This document shows positions 30,701 through 33,943 of a DNA stretch of 64,000 bases, piece after piece. The notes under the pieces are model-generated. The model worked only from the letters and a program-made list of their open reading frames with translations, was not told the origin of the DNA and made no database searches. Position numbers and translations under genes: made by a program. Source of the stretch: Neocallimastix lanati (nom. inval.) (Eukaryota > Neocallimastigomycota > Neocallimastigomycetes > Neocallimastigales > Neocallimastigaceae); contig JACVTC010000021.1 of NCBI GenBank assembly GCA_016946835.1, forward strand, positions 1,223,501 through 1,287,500, given 5' to 3'. How positions within the stretch are numbered: the stretch's first letter is position 1; every line of letters starts with the position of its first letter.

Positions 30701-32035
30701 ATATATATTATTTATTATTTATTATTTATTATTTATTATTTATTATTTATTATTTATTATTTATTATTTATTATTTATTATTTATTATTTATTATTTATT
30801 ATTTATTATTTATTATTTATTATTTATTATTTATTATTTATTATTTATTATTTATTATTTATTATTTATTATTTATTATTTATTATTTATTATTTATTAT
30901 TTATTATTTATTATTTATTATTTAATTATTTATTATTTATTATTTATTATTTATTATTTATTATTTATTATTTAATTATTTATTACTCAATTATTCAATT
31001 ATTTATTATTCAATTATTTATTAATAAATACTCGATTTATTATTATTTATTATTTATAATTTATTATTCAATTATTTATTAATAAATACTTATTTTATTA
31101 TTATTTATTTATTTATTATTTATTATTCAATTATTTATTAATAAATACTCATTTTATTATTATTTATTCTTTATTATTTATTATTCAATTATTTATTAAT
31201 AAATACTCATTTTATTATTATTTATTCTTTATTCTTTATTCTTTTTTATTTATTATTCAATTATTTATTAATAAATACTCATTTTATTATTATTTATTAT
31301 TTATTCTTTATTCTTTATTTCTTTATTATTTATTATTCAATTATTTATTAATAAATACTCATTTTATTATTATTTATTATTTATTCTTTATTCTTTTTTA
31401 TTTATTATTCAATTATTTATTAATAAATACTCATTTTATTATTATTTATTATTTATTCTTTATTCTTTATTATTTATTATTCAATTATTTATTAATAAAT
31501 ACTCATTTTATTATTATTTATTCTTTATTCTTTATTCTTTTTTATTTATTATTCAATTATTTATTAATAAATACTCATTTTATTATTATTTATTATTTAT
31601 TCTTTATTCTTTTTTATTTATTATTCAATTATTTATTAATAAATACTCATTTTATTATTATTTATTATTTATTCTTTATTATTTATTATTCAATTATTTA
31701 TTAATAAATACTCATTTTATTATTATTTATTATTGATTATTTATTCTTTATTCTTTATTCTTTATTATTCAATTATTTATTAATAAATACTCATTTTATT
31801 ATTATTTATTTTTTATTCTTTATTATTTATTGTTCAATTATTTATTAATAAATACTCATTTTATTATTATTTATTATTTATTCTTTATTATTTATTATAC
31901 AATTATTTATTAATAAATACTCATTTTATTATTATTTATTATTGATTATTTATTCTTTTTTATTTATTATTCAATTATTTATTAATAAATACTCATTTTA
32001 TTATTATTTATTATTGATTATTGATTTTATATTCA
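30701..32035. repeat. Long satellite: TTATTTA tract, then ~15 units with the taataaatactc core
   Basis: About 30715-30960 is a near-pure TTATTTA-type tract. From about 31000 to 32035, roughly 15 units of about 57-80 bp repeat a core of the form ttcaattatttattaataaa followed by tactcattttattatt. The units are separated by variable ttattcttta stretches. No spacers of unique sequence occur, so this is a satellite and not a CRISPR array. Confidence 0.9.
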
Positions 32036-32110
32036 TTATTTATTTTTAAAAGTAAGTCCTGCTATTAAAGCTCAATTCGTACAACACTTAACACAGTAAT
32101 ACCTAATAAA

Positions 32111-32560
32111 TAAAAAAAAAAACATAGACTTGCACACATGGGTACCCATCTCCCATATGGCCATACAGTTATTAATTAACTGTAAGGTGATGAGTTATTG
32201 GCATACTGTAACAGCTTCGCCGCTCTCAATCGTCGTTACACACTTCCCGGAGATGCATTCCTAACGTTCCTACATATATCTCTATTGACCACGAGCATCA
32301 GAACGGAATCATTAACTCCTCCCTAGTGGGTGTAATCATTGGCGATTGGAAATTTTACAATCATCAAGGTCTATGCTTCAATTCAAAACGTAGAATCAGG
32401 GTTGGGTGAAATAATCATTTGAGGGAAAGCCTTATGAATATCACGTGTGGTCTCATGATATCCCAGGATAGAAACCTCATCCGATTATTTGGTGCCATGC
32501 CGAGGATTCGAACCCCGCCATCTACAGTAACCTGTATCGATACCCAATAAATAAATTTAA
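32111..32560 (-). ncRNA. Structured Pol III-type RNA gene or SINE in a GC island
   Basis: A ~430 bp island of normal base composition in DNA that is otherwise nearly all A/T, with no coding frame. On the minus strand: a perfect B box ggttcgaatcc (32514-32504) sits in a tRNA-like T arm (5 bp stem, 7 nt loop) followed by a CCA-like gcatggcacca. Strong hairpins follow, such as 32462-32454 with 32445-32437 (9 bp including two G-U) and 32183-32165 (7 bp, 5-nt loop), the latter enclosed by a second stem. The block ends in an 11-T run (32122-32112), a Pol III terminator. A convincing A box is missing. Candidates are SRP RNA, RNase P/MRP RNA or a tRNA-derived SINE. A possible diverged relic at 61455-61545 favours a SINE. 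I did not find the diagnostic SRP domain IV or RNase P core motifs. Confidence 0.6.
32112..32122 (-). terminator. Pol III-type oligo-T terminator
   Basis: Eleven consecutive T on the minus strand directly after the last hairpin-rich part of the RNA island. It is the first long T-run downstream of the B box in that orientation. Confidence 0.55.
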
Positions 32561-33943
32561 AAAAATTTTCTCGTTTTTATTAAACTTTATTTACCTATAT
32601 TAATGGCCAGCCTTTTAAAAAAATATTCTAATAGGACATTTATAATAAATTTAAAATAATTTACTACAAAAATTTTTATGATTCAAAACATTATAAAATA
32701 ATTAATTAAAGTAATTGTTTTATTTTGTTAAAAATCTAACATTTATAATACATTTAGTATTTTTTCTTGAATACTTAAACAATTAAATTTAAAAATTAGA
32801 ATTACTATCCAAATATATTTATTAGTAAAAAAAAAATAATTATGATTATTTTATTTAATTATTATTAATCGGTTATTATTTTTTTATTCATTATATATTA
32901 AATTTAATTTTTTTTTTTTTTTGTAATTTCCAATATATTAGTTATATAAACTATTTTAAAACATGGTAGATAAATTTTATATATAAGCTTTTTTAATAAT
33001 TTTTGAAATATTTACAAAAAAAAAAAAAAAAATTTTTTTTATTGTTATAATTTTTTAATGAAATTCAGATATTTTTAAATGGCTGTAAATATATATATAT
33101 TGTTTAATTATATTAATATATCATTGTATAATTATTTTTTTATATTTTATATTTATGTAATTTATTTAAAATTTTGGTTTTTCTGTAATTTATTATTCAA
33201 TTATTATTATAACTATTATAATTATTATTATTATTATTATTATTATATTTATTTTAATTATTATTATTATTATTATAAAAATATTTAAATATAAAAAAAT
33301 AGTTTTTATCATTAAAAATAATTATAACAGTTTGAAAAAAAAAAAAAAAGTGTTACTTTAAAATGTTAATAAAGTTAAGTTTTGCTTACACTTCCTATTT
33401 ATTGTTTATTTGTATTAAAATAATATAAAAATCACATTAAATAATTATTTATAATAAATCATAATAATAATCAATAATAATAATTTTAAAAATAATAATA
33501 AATATTTTTTTATATACTAAAATAATTTAAAGATATATAAAATTTTTACAATAAAAATAAAGTTAAAGGTTTAAGAGATAAAAGTACTTTTAAAAAGAAA
33601 ATTCTTTATTTTTTGAATAAGTATTTTTTTTTTTATTAAAAAAATTTTTTTAAAAAAAAATTATAAAATAAAAAAAAAAAAAAAAAAAGGAATTTCTTTT
33701 ATATATTAATAATTTTAAGTTTTGTTTTTATTTCTTATTTATTGTTTTGAGGTTTTGATATTTTATTAGGAGAGATATGTATATATCACATATTAAATTT
33801 TTTAGAATGAAGTATGTTAGATTATCTTATTGATACCATATTTTATATTTGAATTATTTGACTTATTTTACAGTATAAACTATTTAAAAAATTTTTCTTT
33901 AATAAATTCTTTTATTGTAACTTATAAAAATAAAATTATAAAG
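32561..33943. other. A+T-rich spacer, no gene seen
   Basis: It contains (ATT)n at 33214-33275 and several A- or T-runs. No feature with coding-like composition is present. Confidence 0.6.

Follow-up and report, generated by a model that had tools for sequence, protein, structure and literature searches.

The plant SINEs p-SINE1, Au and TS end in T-rich or TTG tails. Mg-SINE of Magnaporthe is presented in PMC3747384 as a fungal tRNA-SINE that is paired with the LINE MgL/MGR583, and AfuSINE2 of Aspergillus fumigatus is characterised, in the part of PMC5063351 devoted to it, as a low-copy element with degenerate boxes and without cloverleaf folding of its heads. For the anaerobic gut fungi (Neocallimastigomycota), no paper about a SINE appeared among the open-licence papers listed, which is weak evidence of its absence from print. 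The published Neocallimastix assemblies have 187-201 Mb and 18.2-18.3% GC, according to the figures quoted in PMC12341934.

The window, that is, the whole 64,000-nucleotide stretch of Neocallimastix lanati DNA that was analysed, has a GC content of 18.8%. An earlier note, made from the letters of the window, had described a GC island of normal composition in A/T-rich DNA, and this was borne out, as the minus strand between 32123 and 32539 has 43% GC, compared with 7.6% in the 500-bp bin at 31501-32000 and 15.6% in that at 32501-33000, into which the island itself extends by 39 bp. In agreement with the claimed lack of a coding frame, the longest open reading frame in 31900-32700 reaches 44 aa (ORF list, with ATG, GTG or TTG starts), and the perfect B box within a T-arm fold and the oligo-T end were found on the minus strand as described, the boundaries proposed for the island being right within around 20 bp (Table 1). 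We conclude that this island is almost certainly one copy, truncated at its 5' end, of a tRNA-derived SINE that is dispersed in the genome, and not a stand-alone ncRNA gene. The missing A box, the duplicated target at the flanks and the hundreds of sister copies were absent from the earlier note.

Table 1. The SINE copy of the window, its parts and its flanks (positions in the window).
Feature	Positions	Strand
SINE copy lacking its 5' end, 417 bp (consensus 26-442) with 12 substitutions	32123..32539	-
What is left of the tRNA-derived head at its 3' side: anticodon and T arms, 3' strand of the acceptor, CCA	32490..32539	-
B box GGTTCGAATCC, perfect, inside the T arm	32504..32514	-
Encoded CCA, directly after the discriminator base	32490..32492	-
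Hairpin domain, consensus 76-156	32409..32489	-
3' domain, consensus 185-442; predicted closing pair GCATAGACCTTG and terminal CAAGTCTATG	32123..32380	-
Hairpin ACAGTTAATTAATAACTGT	32165..32183	-
Hairpin CATATGGGAGATGGGTACCCATGTG, not above shuffles	32135..32159	-
T-tail, 11 T, the last few of which may be part of the target duplication	32112..32122	-
5' target-site duplication ATTTATTGGGTAT	32540..32552	-
3' target-site duplication ATTTATTAGGTAT, one mismatch	32099..32111	-
Flank on one side: a different, pre-existing interspersed repeat entered by the SINE	32047..32098	
Flank on the other side of that pre-existing repeat, one copy of the target duplication included	32540..32669	

The window copy begins at consensus position 26 and consequently has no A box, and ARAGORN finds no tRNA in the window, where the head is truncated. 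A 25-mer extending from the B box to the CCA has a single occurrence in the window and was absent from all of 100 shuffles. One internal TTTT, absent from the consensus, is present in this copy, and its divergence of 2.9% (12/417) is the third highest among the 46 copies compared. It has the minority base at all five variable positions of the consensus (36, 126, 128, 146 and 256, where a second base is found in at least four copies), in such a way that only around seven changes are private to it. Without A box, with an internal TTTT and diverged to that extent, the copy is probably dead, and it is most likely a silent passenger and not an ncRNA gene. The reading of a Pol III gene at this locus is unsupported, because the A box is lost and the T-run is the tail of the insertion.

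In the host genome (199 Mb in 762 contigs), a similarity search with the element was carried out; of its 630 candidates, the 40 that were scored, with the window itself among them, all matched over most of the query. A tail pattern of 21 bases, allowing up to two mismatches, gave 186+171 = 357 matches over many contigs, and a head pattern of 34 bases, with up to three mismatches, gave 130+112 = 242; as controls, the same patterns written backward produced 0 matches each in this genome. The exact SINE patterns produced 0 matches in viral contigs (three scans) and in prokaryote genome contigs (one scan). The copies analysed were the eight loci from the similarity search and the first 40 of the 357 tail matches (L009-L048, all with 0 mismatches), and two of them were left out of all the counts on 46 copies, L022 (which coincides with L002) and L048 (where the match breaks off ahead of the tail).

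The full-length element is non-coding and 442 bp long, with stop-free stretches of at most 71 codons, and consists, in its own orientation, of a tRNA-like head with A and B boxes and encoded CCA (1-75), a 367-bp body with a hairpin domain (76-156), a linker (157-184) and a 3' domain (185-442), and a T-tail. The median of substitutions with respect to the 442-bp consensus was 0.45% over the 46 copies, seven of them having zero, and these estimates of age and intactness lean young because most copies were chosen by their exact tail and the remainder as best matches to the window copy. Judging from the sequences, the hundreds of near-identical copies indicate that the family seems to have been recently active in this genome.

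The head of the full-length copies is a tRNA-like cloverleaf. ARAGORN detected a 75-nt tRNA ending in CCA, with a two-letter anticodon (shortened loop), in five of the first eight loci, which are exactly the five full-length ones, and in none of the three truncated loci. An exact A box was present in 28 of the 30 full-length copies (29 starting at position 1 and one at position 3). Of the 37 copies extending as far as the T arm, an exact B box was seen in 36, and the acceptor end with its CCA, GGCATGGCACCA, was exact in 33; in L028, L037 and L039 the acceptor bases are changed and the CCA is still present (by eye), and in L015 the acceptor end/CCA part is deleted. No TTTT exists on the element strand of the consensus, a weak sign of a Pol III unit since the same was found in 32% of shuffles.

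A D-arm pattern search for a candidate parent gave 39 matches, 38 of them to one tRNA-Gln type and the other to a tRNA-Glu(CTC) gene (L119) whose D arm is almost that of the SINE. The local score of this gene against the SINE head was 63.5, and those of the other four genes were 40.5 at most. The comparison covered five tRNA genes (Glu, Gln and three Arg, i.e., three isoacceptors) sought by D-arm similarity, and because it is small and steered by the D arm, a Glu parent would be a lead from sequence likeness, not a proof. Both the D arm and the T arm of this host gene are nearly the same as in the SINE head, whereas its anticodon loop is normal and it has no encoded CCA, the SINE head having instead an anticodon arm that is shortened, one additional base in the D loop and different acceptor bases. 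A host tRNA with the exact D arm of the SINE was also considered and rejected, as the single match (C39) is separated from a match of the SINE tail by exactly the distance expected within one element.

Some observations on the tRNA genes themselves were made along the way. The tRNA-Gln(TTG) gene, of which one copy was typed, appears at regular steps on contigs C188 (~11.1 kb) and C252 (~12.7 kb), and also on C251 and others, as if it were inside a long tandem unit such as an rDNA repeat. On contig C555, the stretch at ~170-399 kb accounts for 34 of the 63 listed matches to tRNA genes, nearly all of equal score; a gene on C67 with the same score as this cluster is Arg(TCT), as are the lower-scoring genes on C57 and C610.

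The marks of insertion were studied in the same copies. Own-flank duplications with a score of at least 12 were detected in 37 of the 46 copies, versus 57 of 2070 swapped-flank pairs, and the score was not reached in nine copies. Duplication length varies from copy to copy; that of the window copy (Table 1), 16 bp with one mismatch under maximal matching, has a score of 12, just at the threshold. The first base of the duplication is T in 35 of the 36 clean cases, compared with 75% in a maximal-matching null of artificial insertions (P ~5e-4), which is a real but modest excess. The base just before it is A or G in 29 of the 36, and this provides no evidence of site preference because the null alone gives 84%. 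A preference for a nick between A and T was accordingly rejected, as maximal matching explains the A/G in front of the site and the T that follows exceeds the null only modestly. The tails are T-runs of ~0 to 40 T, some with G. Truncation at the 5' side (start after position 3) affects 16 of the 46 copies, with many start points and a common 3' end, and one remnant (L110) is reduced to 15-17 bp from the 3' end, followed by a T-tail and with a duplication read by eye.

Empty sites were searched for in the same genome with the joined flanks of nine loci (eight whole and one in part), and matches spanning the junction were obtained for three of them: L004, L020 and the copy in the window. The latter could be aligned with three empty places (C46, C112 and C69; 85-91% alike), all uninterrupted and with a single target copy, and therefore the SINE entered another interspersed repeat. 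The one empty place aligned with L004 was likewise uninterrupted and showed small differences at the site. A match for L009 (C554, 83%) was not counted, as it crosses both the junction and the join with the neighbouring query piece. An AT-rich minisatellite at 30702-32048, with 19 copies of a ~72 bp period and a plus strand almost free of G (GC skew of -0.78 to -0.94 in three bins), adjoins the SINE and the repeat that it entered.

The predicted folding of the RNA was compared with that of shuffled sequences. The claim of at least three strong hairpins held in part, since those at consensus 76-156 and 380-402 beat the shuffles (1 and 0 of 300 as good, respectively) and that at 403-432 does not (15%), the three of them having been picked after the fact. 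The whole strand of the window copy does not stand out either from dinucleotide shuffles (z -1.28; 10 of 100 as good), and similar values were obtained for the consensus (z -1.12; 13 of 100 as good); the 3' domain (185-442), taken as a whole, is not clearly more stable than shuffles (8%). Whole-molecule structure was thus rejected as evidence for an ncRNA, as shuffles fold as well. In a separate observation, the 38 usable copies of L009-L048 include 13 truncated ones, and five of these (L011, L016, L017, L029 and L046) start at consensus 119/120, at the junction between the loop (112-119) and the 3' arm of a predicted hairpin. Such a common start may reflect cleavage of the RNA within the loop or a stop of the reverse transcriptase.

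The GC island in AT-rich DNA, the B box and the local hairpins above shuffles would also suit a structured ncRNA gene specific to the lineage, or a copy of the SINE co-opted as one at a later stage, expressed from the locus. Such a gene is very improbable, however, with the A box missing, an internal TTTT that arose in the window copy, a sequence that is the third most diverged of 46, a global fold equal to that of shuffles and sister copies in the hundreds. The covariance models of Rfam 15 gave 0 matches in the window at the gathering threshold (SRP, RNase P, MRP, snoRNA and others), and at E up to 10 only sub-threshold matches (E 4.4 and 7.5) appeared in 32000-32700, nothing usable. The earlier note had left the choice between an ncRNA and a SINE family, with a count of copies in the host genome as a check; this count gave hundreds of dispersed copies with target duplications, and together with the tRNA heads and the empty sites it upholds the SINE and not the ncRNA gene. 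A MITE or another cut-and-paste DNA element is scarcely conceivable: it would share with the island the short non-coding sequence, the high copy number and the flanking duplications, but not the variable length of these duplications, the tail of ~0 to 40 T, the 5' ends truncated at many places with a shared 3' end or the tRNA head, and the ends of the element, as read from the sequence, are not inverted repeats of each other.

For the SINE, the copies analysed show copy-and-paste starting at the 3' end, with target duplications and often stopping early. Copying with these three traits is the signature of target-primed reverse transcription in LINEs and SINEs, and many SINEs, although not all, have the 3' end in common with their partner LINE. 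By the most likely route, Pol III would transcribe the SINE RNA, the U-tail of which would pair with an oligo-A 3' end at the nick and prime reverse transcription, with LINE enzymes supplied for the target-primed reaction.

The genome contains LINE frames of ~1405 aa with endonuclease and RVT_1 domains. Eleven LINE 3' ends were read, and nine of them have a long A-run, which is lacking in the near-identical L101 and L102. AGTCTA precedes the tail in 11/11 ends and AAGTCTA in 7/11, in the place where the SINE has AAGTCTATG, and these ends showed no other likeness to the SINE. As a side observation, L101 and L102, without a long A-tail, have the same flanks (99.5% over 1.5 kb); this locus was apparently duplicated once the LINE had inserted. 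In a second endonuclease group (L111-L114, four ends) no readable LINE 3' end was found. A LINE sharing only the last ~15-20 bases was sought through a tail pattern that excludes the upstream bases of the SINE, a search that a longer shared stretch would escape, and its one match was the SINE remnant L110; all 40 fetched matches of the 21-base tail pattern were SINE copies. Many RVT_1 frames of ~1335 aa are also present in this genome, and the one scanned (L055) was discarded as an LTR-type polyprotein with integrase.

Mobilisation of the SINE by the LINE of its host that has a poly(A) tail, an endonuclease and a reverse transcriptase, through recognition of the common terminal AAGTCTA and not of the tail, is possible, if rather unlikely. 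The ~1405-aa frames and the motif in the same place of LINE and SINE argue for it, but the motif is seven bases picked after the fact, the LINE ends mostly carry A tails versus T in the SINE, and the sole candidate LINE duplication (L098/L100), a 14-base match with an uncertain LINE boundary, starts with A or C and not with T. The partner may thus be either this A-tailed LINE, acting via the short motif, or another LINE with a T-tail. An encoded CCA is a block to RNase Z. We would tentatively put forward, while considering it unlikely, a poly(A)-independent SINE cycle in which a nearly complete tRNA with its encoded CCA would stand at the front of the RNA and, as an RNase Z antideterminant, would prevent the tRNA machinery from removing the body, and in which the U-tail from Pol III termination would prime insertion at oligo-A ends, the LINE needing no A-tail.

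Within a little-studied lineage, the SINE is a well-supported element of an ordinary type, its notable details being the encoded CCA and the T-tail. Its copy in the window accounts for a GC island that could be mistaken for an ncRNA gene. A family with so many near-identical copies would give presence/absence markers for strains and a Pol III promoter where genetic tools are scarce, and it would be a natural test of the way in which a SINE maintains its tRNA head and puts its T-tail to use. According to the abstract of PMC5796279, of 2018, protocols for inserting or deleting genes were lacking for anaerobic gut fungi.

Likened by description only, Mg-SINE is fungal and tRNA-derived like the present SINE, with a head that is said in PMC5063351 to fold as a cloverleaf. 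Its partner LINE is known, whereas none was found for the present SINE among the 11 LINE 3' ends read. To our knowledge, Mg-SINE has no encoded CCA or T-tail. The plant SINEs p-SINE1, Au and TS, compared also by description only and from an unrelated host, are tRNA-derived and have a T-type 3' end like the element studied here. AfuSINE2 resembles it in being tRNA-related, in its Pol III boxes and target duplications and in size (140-493 bp), as far as its account in PMC5063351 goes. In contrast with AfuSINE2, the present SINE has hundreds of near-identical copies with mostly exact boxes, an ARAGORN-positive cloverleaf, an encoded CCA and a T-tail.
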